Source: Bacillus sp. UNC438CL73TsuS30
GTDB lineage: Bacteria; Bacillota; Bacilli; Bacillales; Cytobacillaceae
Direction of reading: 5' to 3'
Length of the DNA stretch: 64,000 nt
NCBI RefSeq assembly: GCF_000482325.1
Contig: NZ_AXVA01000012.1
Coordinates: 124,001 to 188,000 of the forward strand
The notes under the pieces were generated by a model. It was not told the DNA's origin, did not search any database, and saw nothing but the letters and a program-made list of their open reading frames with translations. Shown here piece after piece: positions 22,991-37,567 of the stretch; the stretch's first letter is position 1, and each line of letters begins with the position of its first letter. The position numbers were made by a program, and so were the translations under genes.

Positions 22991-24226
22991 ATGAAAGAGG
23001 GCTTCAGAAATCAAAAGTTAATATTTGAAGAGAAAAAAGCCATTAAATTATTTTTGTGGTTGTTTTATATAATCTATTTTTCATTTGACTTTTTTTACTA
23101 TTACATCTATTCGTTTTCGAATGGGAAGAAATTAACCATTCTTCATGAGGGCTTAGGAATATGGCTATATTTTTTATTAATTGGATTACTACCAATCGGA
23201 GTTTATTTCTTAAAAAAGGGAAACCCCTATATTGTTAAATATCTTTTTTTATATGGTTATATACTTTTTGACATTATTGACTGTCTTATGATCTATTTAG
23301 GAACAACTAAGCCTTTTGCGACTGGAAATGTTGTTGAAATTTTATTTATTGTTTTTTCTCCAGTATTTGTAAATAAAAGATTTTTTTGGAATGTCACCTT
23401 AGGGTTAATTGGTAAAGATCTATTTTTAGGAATAATCCTGCATGACTATCGTGTGTTACTCCCGGTTTTGATATTTGCCATCATAGATGCTATTGCTTTT
23501 ATTCTTTTAATAAGATTTAACTCCTATATTGACTCCTTAACACATGTACTTGATGAGCTAAGACAAAAAGAAAAACTTGCTGTTATCGGTCAAATGGCTG
23601 CCGCAATAGGTCATGAGATTCGAAATCCATTGTCTTCATTGAAAGGTTTTACTCAATTACAAAAGGAAAGATATCCAAATACAAATGATTTCTACCCAAT
23701 CATGATCCAAGAAATTGATCGGATTAATTCAATTGTCAATGATTTAATGTATTTAGGTAAACCCAGGGCTATTGAATATGTTAAATCAAACATTGAAGAA
23801 ATCATTGCTTATACATTATCGATTACCCAACAGCAAGCCGAAAGACATGCTGTTGTTATGGAAACTCTTATAGAGGGACCTTTACCTCCTATCGATTGTG
23901 ATGCAAAACAATTAAAACAGGTATTTATTAATCTATTCAAAAATGCAATTGAAGCGATGACGGAAGGTGGAAAAATAAAAATTAACGCGAAGGTTTTAAA
24001 AGGGCAAAAAATGTACATCTCTATCCAAGATGAAGGGTGCGGTATTTCGGAGGAAGTTATCCCTAATTTAGGTGAACCTTTCTATACGACCAAAAAAGAT
24101 GGAACAGGTCTTGGTTTAATGGTTTCAAATCAAATCATTAAAGATCATAAAGGCAGCTTTAATATCAGAAGTCATATCGGAAAAGGAACAAAGGTTGAAG
24201 TGATTTTACCAATATTTCAGAACTAG
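22991..24226 (+). CDS. Orphan sensor histidine kinase with six- to seven-helix N-terminal domain
   Basis: A 411-residue kinase. Residues about 15-185 form six or seven membrane helices, including GNVVEILFIVFSPVFVN. HisKA follows with H-box AAAIGHEIRNPLSSLKG (about 205-221), then HATPase_c with NLFKNAIEAMTEGG, IQDEGCGIS and KKDGTGLGLMVS. The N-terminal domain is clearly related to that of the HD-GYP protein at 24431 (GNAVEVFWLLLSPVFVN), so both probably sense the same kind of signal. No regulator is adjacent. GGAGG lies nine bases before the ATG. The coding sequence is AT-rich compared with the window's housekeeping genes. Confidence 0.87.
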   Translation: MKEGFRNQKLIFEEKKAIKLFLWLFYIIYFSFDFFYYYIYSFSNGKKLTILHEGLGIWLYFLLIGLLPIGVYFLKKGNPYIVKYLFLYGYILFDIIDCLMIYLGTTKPFATGNVVEILFIVFSPVFVNKRFFWNVTLGLIGKDLFLGIILHDYRVLLPVLIFAIIDAIAFILLIRFNSYIDSLTHVLDELRQKEKLAVIGQMAAAIGHEIRNPLSSLKGFTQLQKERYPNTNDFYPIMIQEIDRINSIVNDLMYLGKPRAIEYVKSNIEEIIAYTLSITQQQAERHAVVMETLIEGPLPPIDCDAKQLKQVFINLFKNAIEAMTEGGKIKINAKVLKGQKMYISIQDEGCGISEEVIPNLGEPFYTTKKDGTGLGLMVSNQIIKDHKGSFNIRSHIGKGTKVEVILPIFQN

Positions 24227-24430: not shown

Positions 24431-25630
24431 ATGAAAAAAAAATTAATAGACTCAAACATAAGACATGAAGAAGGCCGAACCTTAAAATGGTTTATTGTTT
24501 TATTTTATATTATATCAATTTCCTATGATTTATTTTATCATGTCATTTCAATCTATAGTCCAAAATTAAAATATGAAACGCCAGATATATTAGGATTATG
24601 GATTTATTTGTTCATGTTTGCATTAATTCCAATTGCACGATATTTATTTAGGAAGCAAAAACAACATCAGATAAAATATATTTATTTTGTTACCTACACT
24701 AGCTTAACTTTAATAAATGATATTATTTCCTTTATTGGTAAACCGGAGCTTTACAAAAGTGGAAATGCAGTTGAAGTTTTTTGGCTTTTATTATCACCTG
24801 TATTTGTAAATATTACTTTCGTTAAAGTGGTTACGATTAGCCTATTATTAAAATATATTATTTCTGGTCTAGTGATTCAAACTTCCTTTGTTTTATTACC
24901 TATTTTAATGATTGCAATCCTTTCAGTTTTTTCATTTATCCTTTTAAATCGATTCCAATCCTATCTAAATGCAATAAAAACCTCCTATGATCAACAATTG
25001 GAGGGGATTGTTAAAGGTGTAATAGCTACTCTCGAACTGAAGGATCCGTATACTCGGGGACATAGTGAACGGGTCGCAAGCTATGCTTTCGAATTAGCAA
25101 AAATAAGTGGGAAGTTTTCGAGAGACGAGTTAAAATCTTTTAATTATGCATGTTTATTACATGATATCGGTAAAATCCATATCCCTGATCATATTTTAAT
25201 GAAGTCTGGAAGCCTAACGAAAGAAGAATATGAAATTATTAAGTCACATACTGTGGTTGGCGCAGAAGCTGTTTCGAAAGTAGTAGGATTTAAAGATAGT
25301 ATTGGTGTAATTCGTTCCCATCATGAACGTTGGGATGGAGAAGGATATCCAGACGTGTTAAAAGGTGAGGAAATTCCGTATCTTGCTCGAGTTACCTCAA
25401 TTGCTGATGCATTTGATGCTATGACCTCTACAAGATCATATAGGGCAGCACTGTCAATTGAAGAGGCATATAAGAGGATTTTGGAGGGGAAGGGTACACA
25501 ATTTGACCCTGAATTAGTAGAACAATTTAAAAAAGTTCTTCCTTTATGGAGAAGCATTTATGATAAAGCAAATAAAGAACAAGGTTTCACCATTACTCTA
25601 AATAAACAAGTGAATTCAGATAGGGGGTGA
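24431..25630 (+). CDS. Membrane HD-GYP phosphodiesterase-like protein
   Basis: A 399-residue protein. Residues about 15-185 are a multi-helix membrane domain homologous to that of the upstream kinase; residues about 195-370 are an HD-GYP domain. All signature parts are present: HSERVASYA, LLHDIGKIHIPD, HTVVGAEAV, SHHERWDGEGYP and ADAFDAMTS. Such domains usually hydrolyse cyclic di-GMP or related cyclic dinucleotides, so activity is plausible. Its stop overlaps the ribosome binding site of the 19-residue peptide gene (AGGGGGTGA), so the two are translationally coupled. The context suggests a membrane sensor linked to the peptide system. Confidence 0.88.
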   Translation: MKKKLIDSNIRHEEGRTLKWFIVLFYIISISYDLFYHVISIYSPKLKYETPDILGLWIYLFMFALIPIARYLFRKQKQHQIKYIYFVTYTSLTLINDIISFIGKPELYKSGNAVEVFWLLLSPVFVNITFVKVVTISLLLKYIISGLVIQTSFVLLPILMIAILSVFSFILLNRFQSYLNAIKTSYDQQLEGIVKGVIATLELKDPYTRGHSERVASYAFELAKISGKFSRDELKSFNYACLLHDIGKIHIPDHILMKSGSLTKEEYEIIKSHTVVGAEAVSKVVGFKDSIGVIRSHHERWDGEGYPDVLKGEEIPYLARVTSIADAFDAMTSTRSYRAALSIEEAYKRILEGKGTQFDPELVEQFKKVLPLWRSIYDKANKEQGFTITLNKQVNSDRG

Positions 25631-25634
25631 GTAA

Positions 25635-25694
25635 ATGAAAATCCGCAAACTGAGCAAAGTTAAAGTAACGTGCTGGTGGTGCTGGTTTATGTGA
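25635..25694 (+). CDS. 19-aa Cys/Trp-rich peptide, candidate signal or RiPP precursor
   Basis: The translated peptide is MKIRKLSKVKVTCWWCWFM. Its first ten residues hold five Lys/Arg; the last seven are CWWCWFM, a very unusual aromatic/Cys core. ATG start with AGGGGGTGA, which overlaps the stop of the HD-GYP gene, at ideal distance; the peptide starts four bases after that stop. A hairpin terminator follows 8 bases after its stop, and a membrane M50 protease with a PqqD-like domain comes next. That layout resembles precursor peptides made in excess of their processing enzyme. It could instead be a leader peptide with three Trp codons. Calling it a gene is inference from position and composition. 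Confidence 0.6.
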   Translation: MKIRKLSKVKVTCWWCWFM

Positions 25695-25701
25695 ATTATT
25701 A

Positions 25702-25741
25702 AAAAACGGGGTGCTTGCTATTAAGCTATGCATCCTTTTTT
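25702..25741 (+). terminator. Hairpin terminator between peptide and protease genes
   Basis: Stem GGGTGC (25709-25714) with GCATCC (25730-25735), extendable by A6/T6 flanks, followed by a T run. It should stop most transcripts after the peptide gene, with read-through into the protease gene. Confidence 0.8.
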
Positions 25742-25768
25742 AATAGATTAAAAATAAAGGGTGTTTAA

Positions 25769-26959
25769 ATGAACATTTCCTATACTTCCTTTCTCAAATT
25801 GGCCGAAATCGAAATTCGCAAGGATAAAAAACATTATATTGTCGAAGATCAAGTTTCAGGTGAGTTTTATGAAATGACGGAGATTTGTATTGATGCGATT
25901 GATTTAATTAGCCAGGGAACACAATTAGGAGAAATCGAGCATCAACTTCGCGCGAAATATCCTAATGAAGACGTGGACCTGATTAAATTTGCTGACCAGT
26001 TAATCTCACTAAATCTAATAGCAGAAATTGACGGCGTAAAAATTGAGTGTAATCAAAGGGAAAAAGAAGATTTAGGATTTTTATGGATTCCCTCCACAAT
26101 TGGGAGAATCTTTTTCAATCAGTATGCTTATTTTATTTATTCGCTTTTATTTTTTGTTAATATCATTCTTTTAATCATAAACCCTTCTTTGTTCCCGCAC
26201 TATAAAGATTTATTCGTTCTTGATTCGATGTCTTTAATTCTACCGCTACTAATTGTACTAAGATCTCTTCTTGTTTTAATTCATGAACTTGGACATGTTA
26301 TCGCATTACGTTCTTATAATCTGCCTGCAAAAATAAATGTGGGGCACCGGCTGTTTCTTGTGGTATTAGAAACGGATATATCGACAGTATGGAAATTACC
26401 CGCAAAGGATCGGAATAAGTTATTTTTGGCAGGCATTTGTTTTGATACCGTTATCCTATTTTTGGCTTTAGCAGGTCAACTGTTTTTTGCCCACATTCAA
26501 GAGTTTTTCCTAGGCCTAATGAAAATTGTTGTTTTAGATATCTTTTTTAGAATGGTATATCAATGCTGTATTTACATGAAAACAGATTTTTATTACCTTA
26601 TCGAGAATAGTTCAGGTTGCTATAATTTGATGGAAAATGCTCAAGGGCTGTTGAGGGGCCTTATACCGTTTGGAAAATCACTTACCACTGGTGAAATTCT
26701 TTTTGAAAGCGAAAAAAAGACTGTAATCGGCTATTCCATTTTATATTTTATAGGGGTAGGTTTAACTGTATTTTTATATATTTTTTATTTCATTCCGGAA
26801 TTGTTTTATTCGATAAAGGAAGTAATCCCAGGCTTTAAAGCATTTCCTTCAAGTATAAGCTTTTGGGATTCGACTCTCTTCATCTTACAGATTGCATTGT
26901 TCTTTTACCTGCTCATTAATTCCTGGAGGGGAAAATACCTTCAAAAATCACAATTGTGA
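25769..26959 (+). CDS. Membrane M50 metalloprotease with N-terminal PqqD-like (RRE) domain
   Basis: A 396-residue membrane protein. Residues about 20-90 match the pattern of PqqD-like RiPP recognition elements (HYIVEDQVSGEFYEMTEICIDAI..., then FADQLISLNLI). Then come about eight helices with the zinc motif HELGH at 172-176 in a membrane segment, and a likely third ligand Asp in AGICFDTV near 228. Such site-2-type proteases cleave peptides in or near the membrane; YydH and Eep do this for peptide signals. It follows the 19-aa CWWCW peptide gene, so that peptide is its obvious candidate substrate. ATG start with AAAGGGTG. No radical SAM or ABC exporter gene is adjacent. Confidence 0.82.
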   Translation: MNISYTSFLKLAEIEIRKDKKHYIVEDQVSGEFYEMTEICIDAIDLISQGTQLGEIEHQLRAKYPNEDVDLIKFADQLISLNLIAEIDGVKIECNQREKEDLGFLWIPSTIGRIFFNQYAYFIYSLLFFVNIILLIINPSLFPHYKDLFVLDSMSLILPLLIVLRSLLVLIHELGHVIALRSYNLPAKINVGHRLFLVVLETDISTVWKLPAKDRNKLFLAGICFDTVILFLALAGQLFFAHIQEFFLGLMKIVVLDIFFRMVYQCCIYMKTDFYYLIENSSGCYNLMENAQGLLRGLIPFGKSLTTGEILFESEKKTVIGYSILYFIGVGLTVFLYIFYFIPELFYSIKEVIPGFKAFPSSISFWDSTLFILQIALFFYLLINSWRGKYLQKSQL

Positions 26960-34052: not shown

Positions 34053-35069
34053 ATGGAAAGAGAAATGCAGCAAATTAAAAACGAACTTTTAGACTATAAA
34101 TTTGCTCTTGATTCATCTTCAATTGTAGCGATAACAGATTCCCATGGAATTATTACATATGTGAATGATCAATTTTGCCTGATTTCAAAATACTCAAGGG
34201 AAGAATTATTGGGGCAGGATCATCGGATTATTAACTCTGGATATCATTCACAGGAGTTTTTTAAAAAGATGTGGCGGACGATTGGTTCTGGTGAGGTTTG
34301 GAAAGGGGAAATTCGTAATCGTACCAAAGATGGAACCCATTATTGGATGGATACAACGATTGTCCCATTTTTAAACCAAAAGGGTAAGCCTTATCAATAT
34401 GTTGCGATTCGATATGAAATAACGGAAAGAAAGCGCGTTGAGCAGGAATTGCAAAAAATGATGACGACCATCATTGATGTGCAAGAAGAAGAACGGAAGC
34501 GGTTGTCGAGAAATTTACATGATGGGATTGGTCAAAATCTTTACAGTCATTTGATTACGATTAATCGTTTGCTTAATGAGCAGGACCACCCTCTGCTTCA
34601 ACAGATGCAGCAAGAGGCAACGCAGTTAATTGAGGAAATTCGTGAAATTTCCTGGGAGCTTCGCCCCTCTGTATTGGATGACCTTGGGCTGGTTCCGGCG
34701 ATTCGTTCTTTTCTTTCTCGTTATTCAGAGCACTATAATATTGATGTCTATTTTGAGTGTGTATTGAACAAACGGCTGCCAATCAGTATTGAATTAACAA
34801 TTTATCGGATTATCCAAGAGGCGTTAACGAATATCCGTAAATATGCGGAAGTCTCAGAAGCAACTGTCACGATCAGGGAAATTGATGAACTTGTCAGGGT
34901 AATGATTGAAGATAAGGGAATAGGCTTTGATGTAGACAATGTTCAGCGTGGTGTTGGTCTTTTCAGTATGGACGAGCGTGCCCGGGCTGTTAGCGGGGAC
35001 CTATCAATTGTTTCTGAGCCAGGCAAGGGTACGAAAATTATTTTTGAGGTACCTGTTTCAAGATATTGA
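34053..35069 (+). CDS. PAS-domain histidine kinase, HisKA_3 (NreB-like)
   Basis: A 338-residue soluble kinase. A PAS domain (about 15-130) contains DSHGIITYVNDQFCLISKY and the PAC end YVAIRYEITERKR. HisKA_3 follows with NLHDGIGQNLYS (about residue 155) and then HATPase_c (ALTNIRKYAEVSEA, IEDKGIGF, GLFSMDERA). Staphylococcal NreB senses oxygen with four PAS-domain cysteines holding a [4Fe-4S] cluster. This PAS has no such set, so the signal must differ. It is the second HisKA_3 kinase next to one regulator. AGGGGGG precedes the ATG. Confidence 0.86.
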   Translation: MEREMQQIKNELLDYKFALDSSSIVAITDSHGIITYVNDQFCLISKYSREELLGQDHRIINSGYHSQEFFKKMWRTIGSGEVWKGEIRNRTKDGTHYWMDTTIVPFLNQKGKPYQYVAIRYEITERKRVEQELQKMMTTIIDVQEEERKRLSRNLHDGIGQNLYSHLITINRLLNEQDHPLLQQMQQEATQLIEEIREISWELRPSVLDDLGLVPAIRSFLSRYSEHYNIDVYFECVLNKRLPISIELTIYRIIQEALTNIRKYAEVSEATVTIREIDELVRVMIEDKGIGFDVDNVQRGVGLFSMDERARAVSGDLSIVSEPGKGTKIIFEVPVSRY

Positions 35070-35109
35070 TGGGAGTACTTCGGAATGACAGGCTGTTGTT
35101 TTCATGGGA

Positions 35110-35823
35110 TTGATGAAGGACGTTTTCGTAAGAAGTAGGCAAGAAACATTCTTCATAGCTTGGATGAAGGACGTTTTCGTGAGAACTGGGCAAGAAACGT
35201 TCTTCATAGCTTGGATGAAGGACGTTTTTCATGAGAAGCAGAAAGAACCGTCTTTCATTGGTTTGATGAAGGACGTTTTTCATGAGAAGCAGAAAGAACC
35301 GTCTTTCATAGGTTTGATGAAGGACGTTTTTCGTGAGAAGCAGAAAGAACCGTCTTTCATAGCTTGGATGAAGGACATTTTTCATGAAAAGGAGCAAGAA
35401 CCGTCTTTCATAGATTGGATGAAGGACGTTTTTCATGAAAAGCAGCAAGAAACGTCTTTCATAGATTGGATGAAGGACGTTTTTCATGAGAAGCAGAAAG
35501 AACCGTCTTTCATAGGTTTGATAAAGGACGTTTTTCATGAGAAGCAGAAAGAACCGTCTTTCATAGGATGGATGAAGGACGTTTTCGTGAGAAGTGGGCA
35601 AGAAACGTTCTTCATAGCTTGGATGAAGGACGTTTTTTATGAAAAGCAGCAAGAAACGTCCTTCATAGGTTTGATGAAGGACATTTTTCATGAAAAGGAG
35701 CAAGAACCGTCTTTCATAGCTCGGATGAAGGACGTTTTTCATGAAAAGCAGCAAGAAACGTCTTTCATAGATTGGATGAAGGACGTTTTTTATGAAAAGC
35801 ACCAAGAAGCGTCCTTCATAATC
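35110..35823. repeat. Array 2 of 51-bp palindromic repeats, 14 copies
   Basis: Fourteen exact-length 51-bp units, the first at 35110 and the last at 35773. Each unit has ATGAAGGACGTTTT near its start and CGTCTTTCATAG (or CGTTCTTCATAG) at its end, so the two ends are inverted repeats with a variable purine-rich middle. Two subtypes occur: one with TTTTCGTGAGAA and GGGCAAGAAACG (units 1, 2 and 10), the other with TTTTTCATGA and AGAAAGAACCG. The family is the same as at 12054-12308, but inverted. Because 51 is divisible by 3, both strands stay open throughout (17-residue repeats such as WMKDVFHEKQKEPSFIG). No ribosome binding site supports translation. Confidence 0.93.
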
Positions 35824-35852
35824 TATGCTCAAATACCATTCAAAAGCAAACA

Positions 35853-35893
35853 AAAAACACACGATTTCACATATCTGGAATCGTGTGTTTTTC
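35853..35893. terminator. Bidirectional terminator between the kinase/array and glnS
   Basis: A 14-bp perfect stem AAAAACACACGATT with AATCGTGTGTTTTT around a 12-base loop, between convergent transcription units. Confidence 0.85.
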
Positions 35894-35902
35894 AATTTAT
35901 CC

Positions 35903-37567
35903 TTAAATTTTAAACGAACTCTTCAAAGAAACAATACGGTTAAAGACTAATTTTTCCGCAATCGAATCCTTTGGATCTACGTTGAAATACCCGTGTCTAA
36001 AGAATTGGAATTTGTCGTGCGGCATACTTTCCTTCATGTTTGGCTCAACAAACCCTTGGAAAACCTCGAGAGAATTTGGGTTCACATTATCTAAGAAAGT
36101 TTTTTCTTCCCCATCAGTTGCTTCTTCCACTTCATCCAAAATCAACGGCTCATATAAACGGAACTCTGCCGGAACAGCATGCGCTGCTTCCACCCAGTGA
36201 ATCGTTCCCTTCACCTTACGGCCGGTAAAACCGGTACCGCTCTTTGTTTCAGGATCGTATGTACAGTGCAGTTCCACAACCTTACCGTTCGCATCCTTAA
36301 TCACTTCTTCACATTTGATGAAATAAGCATGCTTTAAGCGAACCTCATTCCCAGGGAACAAACGGAAGTATTTTTTCGGCGGATCTTCCATAAAGTCGTC
36401 CTGCTCAATATAGATTTCACGGGAGAATGGAATCTTCCTCATGCCCATTTCCGGATTTTCTGGATTGATCTCGGCATCTAACAACTCAATTTGTCCTTCC
36501 GGATAGTTCGTAATCACCACTTTTAACGGATTAATTACACCCATTGTACGCGGTGCTTTTAATTTTAAATCTTCACGGACAAAGTGCTCAAGCATTTGGG
36601 AATCCACTACACCTGAACCTTTAGAAACTCCTGTTTCACGAACAAAATTCCGAATCGATTCTGGGGTGAACCCTCTTCTTCTCATTCCGGAAATCGTCGG
36701 CATCCGCGGATCATCCCAGCCGTCAACATATTCTTCCTCGACAAGCTGTTTTAGCTTGCGTTTACTCATAACGGTATTAGTGATATTTAAACGGCCAAAT
36801 TCAATTTGCTGCGGTGTGCTCTCCATTTCACATTGCTCCACAACCCAATTGTATAATGGACGCTGATCCTCAAACTCGATTGTACAAATGGAGTGTGTAA
36901 CGCCTTCAATCGCATCCTCAAGCGGATGGGCGAAAGCATACATCGGATAAATGCACCATTTATCACCTGTGTTATGGTGTGTCGCATGGGCAATACGATA
37001 AATGACAGGGTCACGGAGATTAATGTTAGGTGAAGACATATCGATTTTAGCCCGTAGAACTTTCTCACCATTTCCGAACTCTCCTGCCCGCATCTTCTCA
37101 AATAATTCAAGGTTTTCCTCAATGGAACGATTACGGTAAGGACTTTCCTTCCCAGGTTCTGTCAGTGTACCGCGGTATTCACGGATTTCTTCTGCGGAAA
37201 GATCATCCACATAAGCTAAACCTTTTTTTATTAAAAGAACAGCACGGCTGTACATTTCTTCAAAATAGTTGGAGGCGAAAAATAAGTCATCCCATTCAAA
37301 TCCAAGCCACTTTACGTCTTCTTTAATAGAGTTAACGAATTCAACGTCCTCTTTTAAGGGATTCGTATCATCAAATCGTAAATTCGTTTTTCCGTTAAAA
37401 TCATCTGCTAAGCCAAAGTTGATAATAATTGATTTTGCATGACCAATATGTAAATATCCGTTTGGCTCAGGTGGAAAGCGGGTTACGACCGTTTGATGTT
37501 TTCCCGATTCTAAATCCTTTATCATGACATCTTTTATAAAATTGGAATTATGTTCCACTATTTTCAA
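35903..37567 (-). CDS. glnS: Glutaminyl-tRNA synthetase
   Basis: A 554-residue class I synthetase that charges tRNA(Gln) with glutamine. Motifs: [15 protein letters not shown] (HIGH) near residue 34, FDDTNP, and VMSKRKL (KMSKS) near 268. The C-terminal half is the two-barrel anticodon-binding domain. The length matches bacterial GlnRS (about 550), not GluRS. B. subtilis has no GlnRS and makes Gln-tRNA through GatCAB, so this gene points to horizontal transfer or retention in this lineage. No T-box leader is apparent upstream. It is convergent with the 51-bp array. Confidence 0.95.

Follow-up and report, generated by a model that had tools for sequence, protein, structure and literature searches.

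A Cys/Trp peptide gene, an RRE-M50 membrane protease and a MASE12-HD-GYP protein form a conserved three-gene module

Within a 64,000-nucleotide stretch of the genome of Bacillus sp. UNC438CL73TsuS30 (contig NZ_AXVA01000012.1, positions 124,001 to 188,000; hereafter the window), a 19-codon gene encoding a Cys/Trp-containing peptide (the CWWC peptide) lies 4 nt 3' of a gene for a protein with MASE12 and HD-GYP domains and 74 nt 5' of a gene for a membrane protease that combines an RRE leader-binding domain with an M50 (site-2) catalytic domain. A sequence-only reading had placed the short gene four bases after the HD-GYP gene and behind a ribosome binding site, and both the positions and the gap are borne out. 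The three genes constitute a real and conserved module, and we think it reasonably probable that this is a signalling module, in which the protease would remove a leader from the peptide and the Cys/Trp core would regulate the MASE12-HD-GYP phosphodiesterase. The features of the locus are as follows.

22991..24226, + strand: accessory MASE12 histidine kinase (Pfam MASE12 109.5 bits, HATPase_c 91.4 bits)
24431..25630, + strand: MASE12-HD-GYP protein, a predicted membrane phosphodiesterase of cyclic di-GMP (c-di-GMP)
24467..24946, + strand: MASE12 membrane sensor domain of the HD-GYP protein, residues 13-172, six predicted helices
25622..25629, + strand: ribosome binding site of the peptide gene, AGGGGGTG, overlapping the HD-GYP stop codon (25628-25630)
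25635..25694, + strand: CWWC peptide gene, MKIRKLSKVKVTCWWCWFM (ATG 25635, TGA 25692-25694; leader, residues 1-12; core from Cys13)
25698..25746, + strand: intrinsic-terminator-like hairpin between the peptide and protease genes
25769..26959, + strand: RRE-M50 membrane protease, 396 amino acids
25793..26029, + strand: RRE (PqqD-like) domain of the protease, residues 9-87
26282..26296, + strand: HELGH zinc motif of the protease, residues 172-176

The short gene is real and under selection. It is present in 60 of the 61 genomes of our Neobacillus set, preceded at every one of these 60 loci by a ribosome site (identified with a permissive pattern) and overlapped at 41 by the long upstream open reading frame (ORF). 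Across 96 peptides the non-synonymous variation (pN) is 0.084 and the synonymous variation (pS) 0.74; since pS is close to saturation, the resulting pN/pS of 0.11 is only rough. Cys13, Trp14 and Cys16 are invariant while both Cys codons vary, and the leader residues KIRKLKK are kept while synonymous sites change freely. The overall layout (a short peptide with a conserved leader and a more variable core) is that of a precursor.

Between the peptide and protease genes we predict a hairpin followed by a T run (166 nt folded, z -2.4, equalled by 4 of 200 shuffles), and a terminator-like hairpin stands 3' of the peptide gene in 92 of 96 relatives, compared with 1.4 expected from mononucleotide shuffles. 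A leader ORF before a terminator is the arrangement of a transcription attenuator, in which translation of a Trp/Cys leader peptide would control the terminator 5' of the protease gene; the Trp and Cys codons do adjoin the hairpin. We nevertheless consider attenuation highly improbable, for the KIRKLKK residues are conserved despite free synonymous change, the gene to be controlled is unrelated to Trp or Cys metabolism, and at one Neobacillus locus (genome G003, locus L090) the hairpin has been lost whereas the peptide and protease are retained.

The protease had been read as opening with a PqqD-like domain and carrying HELGH, an assignment that holds at the level of fold. The Pfam matches are weak (PqqD 14.6 bits, below the cut-off of 23.4; M50 13.5 bits, below the cut-off of 27.2), but the AlphaFold model displays both the RRE leader-binding domain, as is characteristic of an RRE-dependent ribosomally synthesized and post-translationally modified peptide (RiPP) system, and a site-2 protease fold, whose catalytic part matches RseP and SpoIVFB. 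His172, Glu173 and His176 of the HExxH motif are invariant in 62 proteases. The protease does not belong to the daptide M50 protease family NF041824, scoring 19.3 bits against a curated cut-off of 300.

Within Neobacillus, the protease occurs in 58 of 61 genomes and an orthologous MASE12-HD-GYP protein in 60; G005 lacks all three genes, and the contig of G053 stops shortly 3' of the peptide. In all 58 protease-bearing genomes the peptide shares strand and contig with the protease, at a gap of 24-126 nt in 56 of them, 302 nt in G059 and 1934 nt in G014. In this last genome (L070:5025-6314) an ORF judged by eye to resemble a group II intron reverse transcriptase separates the two genes. Same-neighbour synteny is common in the genus (among the matches listed), and genus data alone therefore prove little.

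The coupling holds well beyond the genus. A scan of named genomes returned 130 protease relatives, of which 80 were kept, with members in Alkalihalobacterium, Virgibacillus, Mesobacillus, Sporosarcina, Ornithinibacillus, Solibacillus and others. Looking 600 nt upstream of these genes for the CWWCW-like ORF that the sequence-only reading expected, we find a CWxC peptide within ~370 nt at 79 of 80 loci; the one remaining locus (L133) is that of the G014 contig, with the peptide 1934 nt away, such that no close homologue of the protease lacked a small ORF. Among 397 genomes of the order, the peptide is found in 43 and protease matches above 400 bits in the identical 43, and every test of peptide-protease coupling that could be run supports it. 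The HD-GYP protein (E up to 1e-90) is likewise found in 43, a set that differs from the other only by G125, where it was found at a contig start, and G289. A further three close proteases, from another family, appear among 329 genomes of the class, and both loci fetched contain the triple. The order HD-GYP, peptide, protease is kept in 34 of 34 distant loci (L172-L207 without L187 and L197; L202, among them, is from Neobacillus). The HD-GYP protein, which has the HD-GYP fold and catalytic residues and is predicted to be a membrane c-di-GMP phosphodiesterase, had initially been treated as a mere neighbour; it proves no less constant than the protease and is a possible target.

Neighbour clustering of ORFs of at least 90 amino acids identified no gene family beyond the HD-GYP proteins, proteases and MASE12 kinases in at least 6 of the 34 distant loci, and there is therefore no commonly shared radical SAM gene or exporter (other neighbours were not family-scanned). 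The radical SAM epimerase and ABC transporter genes expected of an epipeptide system are thus not common to at least 6 of these loci, nor was a dedicated modifying enzyme found in the cluster, a result that covers linked genes only.

The CWWC system, which the sequence-only reading took for a minimal one, represents one branch within a larger RRE-M50 family, the other examined members of which mostly have a ThiF-like enzyme nearby. Weaker (tier-2) protease matches occur at 18 places in 17 of the 397 genomes, and clustering places a ThiF-like gene within ~2.6 kb of all 18 (three confirmed in Pfam; on the opposite strand in L255), with tiny K-rich peptides recognizable by reading at 17. Of fourteen further loci from the class, 10 contain peptides and 8 have a ThiF gene close to the protease; two downstream genes of non-ThiF type that were checked encode TPR proteins. 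The CWWC-family leader profile scores 20.8 on 27 tier-2 and class peptides versus 10.7 for shuffles of their own residues (sd 0.9, 0 of 2000), these peptides being non-independent and found partly by their K content, which the shuffle preserves. As the profile fits the remoter peptides, leader and RRE-M50 protease go together in systems whose cores differ.

Several of these relatives have distinctive surroundings. L238, L242 and L244 are ThiF/RRE-M50 clusters in which the precursor is repeated several times in tandem; they lie 3' of a helix-turn-helix-TPR regulator gene (Pfam, L242) and a Phr-like small ORF, and the tier-2 cluster of L249, L251 and L252 is flanked by oligopeptide-binding proteins and a major facilitator superfamily transporter (Pfam, L249). 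In L283, L286, L288, L289 and L291 the RRE-M50 gene is followed by one for a protein of ~700-760 amino acids (TPR repeats in both that were checked, L283 and L291); the precursors have KKTEAVKLT-like leaders, and no ThiF gene was seen adjoining the protease. Streptomyces accounts for 20 of 25 plasmid records with an RRE-M50 match; in the one region viewed (L292, NZ_CP109158.1), a distant homologue annotated as a hypothetical protein lies directly 3' of a ThiF gene. Elsewhere in the window, near-identical short repeats with KDVFHEKQKEPSFIGLM-type units occupy 35038-35913, where a long stretch is open on both strands.

The RiPP-like setting of this wider family, with its ThiF enzymes and tiny precursors, is what would be expected if the CWWC peptide were a secreted product (an antimicrobial, a metal ligand or a redox peptide) that the RRE-M50 protease matures, with the HD-GYP protein regulating its production or simply co-inherited; the CWWC motif itself would suit a metal or disulfide role. 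We regard this as unlikely, given that the loci have in common no gene for modification, export or immunity and that the HD-GYP protein is as constant as the protease.

Two genomes inform on the relationship between leader and protease, since G009 and G289 contain the HD-GYP protein and a CWWC peptide while no protease is detected. The G009 leader scores 21.3 versus 41.1 (sd 2.6, n=95), and in G289 the short ORF, MKALIAIACWWCFFF, lies 230 nt 3' of the HD-GYP gene and is devoid of the leader motif. In both cases, loss of the protease accompanies loss of the leader rather than of the core or the HD-GYP protein. Retention of the HD-GYP protein here argues against a secreted product, and retention of CWWC in the absence of any protease gene to control argues against attenuation. 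The same ORF from G289 looks usable uncut, as might be anticipated were the peptide a small subunit of the HD-GYP protein, inside the cell or membrane, which the protease removes so as to switch the enzyme, with no signal released. RseP and SpoIVFB, to which the catalytic fold corresponds, function in regulated proteolysis, and the gene overlap at 41 of 60 Neobacillus loci suggests co-assembly. However, RRE domains and a leader common to remoter precursor systems indicate leader removal, and we judge the subunit explanation improbable. Processing of the peptide by the RRE-M50 protease is likely.

A MASE12 domain opens both the HD-GYP protein and the upstream histidine kinase (Pfam). Such a kinase adjoins the cassette in many loci but not all, either upstream or downstream, and the best-matching one lies within 5 kb in 16 of the 34 distant loci. 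At one locus (L262, genome G111) two tandem MASE12-HD-GYP genes stand 5' of a single peptide and protease.

We then compared variation of the core with that of its potential partners, using NarI as a species proxy. Over 51 Neobacillus loci, core distance correlates with that of MASE12 (0.75) and HD (0.76), versus 0.20 for RRE, 0.08 for M50 and -0.03 for NarI. Cores from 48 loci fall into two types (36 and 12), and core type demands a single change on the HD-GYP tree, compared with 5 on that of the protease and 6 on those of NarI and the kinase. Within the two types, MASE12 (0.37, 0.62) is ahead of HD (0.22, 0.45). That core types follow the HD-GYP protein in Neobacillus speaks further against a secreted product. 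Regulation of the HD-GYP protein by the core is the best, though unproven, reading.

In the mechanism that we infer, which extends to cleavage and its position, product destination, MASE12 binding and the direction of effect, the short gene would yield a precursor in which residues 1-12 (KIRKLKKxKxT) form a leader that docks on the protease's RRE domain. The site-2-type active site would then cut at or near Thr12, liberating a short Cys-Trp-x-Cys core, possibly disulfide-closed. This core could bind the co-translated HD-GYP protein at its MASE12 membrane domain (likewise the MASE12 histidine kinase at loci that have one) and thereby alter c-di-GMP breakdown. With a terminator 3' of the peptide gene, precursor mRNA would stay in excess over that of the protease. 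More tentatively, and a little short of an even call, MASE12 may be a dedicated receptor for a family of processed Cys-Trp peptides, as co-occurrence and the tracking within Neobacillus suggest, such that many Bacillales genera would set c-di-GMP through a ribosomal peptide that a membrane phosphodiesterase senses directly, with exchangeable peptide-receptor types in Neobacillus.

A number of observations weigh against sensing of the core by the HD-GYP protein. MASE12 and HD are inseparable overall as correlates of the core (partials 0.29 and 0.30); within type 2 the kinase MASE12 (0.42), NarI (0.35) and RRE (0.32) also correlate, as does M50 within type 1 (0.19). The type labels derive from peptide sequence and were assigned with the HD-GYP clades already in view, and the trees were quick ones. 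Over 38 loci from many genera, the core shows no tracking of MASE12 beyond the protease (partial 0.02), whereas M50 given MASE12 retains 0.23 (1 of 999 permutations), and the tracking seen in Neobacillus is therefore not universal. Because the HD-GYP and peptide genes touch, an apparent match of ligand and receptor could arise from their recombination as one block; correlation with the HD-GYP protein extends to the leader (r 0.58 to 0.63), as linkage predicts. Four MASE12 kinases lie away from any cassette, three of them in genomes without one; just two protease losses are known, one of which (G289) is in a draft assembly; and no exporter was found.

Should the proposed mechanism be true, the field of precursor peptides and their leader peptidases would be joined to that of c-di-GMP signalling in one compact, widespread module, and the MASE12 sensor domain would gain a candidate ligand. 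It would also hint at a family of RRE-M50 leader peptidases that is for the most part unannotated. The CWWC cassette was not found described in the open-access literature among the matches listed, most subscription papers lying outside the search.

Among the closest parallels is EpeX/EpeP (YydF/YydH) of B. subtilis, where, in the available text of the sources, a membrane M50 protease is thought to cut and export a short precursor (PMC10885120, PMC7026026), M50 proteases being described there for both epipeptides and pearlins (PMC10885120); the comparison also took in the accessible portions of PMC12250964, PMC12150305, PMC7470986 and PMC12710340. Both systems pair such a protease with a small precursor, but the CWWC loci are without a commonly shared radical SAM epimerase or ABC transporter, their constant partner is an HD-GYP protein, and their protease carries its own RRE domain. 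The RRE-ThiF RiPP systems (microcin C, GrcB, IndF) resemble the tier-2 relatives, which have a ThiF protein and precursors with the same leader, whereas the CWWC branch has no adjoining ThiF gene; a term search of the available text of the RRE-ThiF review and the ind paper returns no mention of M50, IndP being an M16 protease. Unlike the lasso-peptide B1 proteins (TbiB1), the RRE of the CWWC system has its protease partner, a site-2 metalloprotease, in the same chain, and there is no cyclase. In the AgrD-AgrC specificity groups, precursor type and sensor type switch together between conserved neighbours; the CWWC system differs in that its output is an HD-GYP phosphodiesterase and in that tracking is seen in Neobacillus only. 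Finally, Eep matures the SHP (short hydrophobic peptide) pheromones, as far as the available text of PMC13361665 describes, and is likewise a membrane metalloprotease acting on a small peptide. The CWWC precursor, however, has a cationic leader where the SHP precursor is hydrophobic, and its predicted target is a c-di-GMP enzyme rather than an Rgg regulator.
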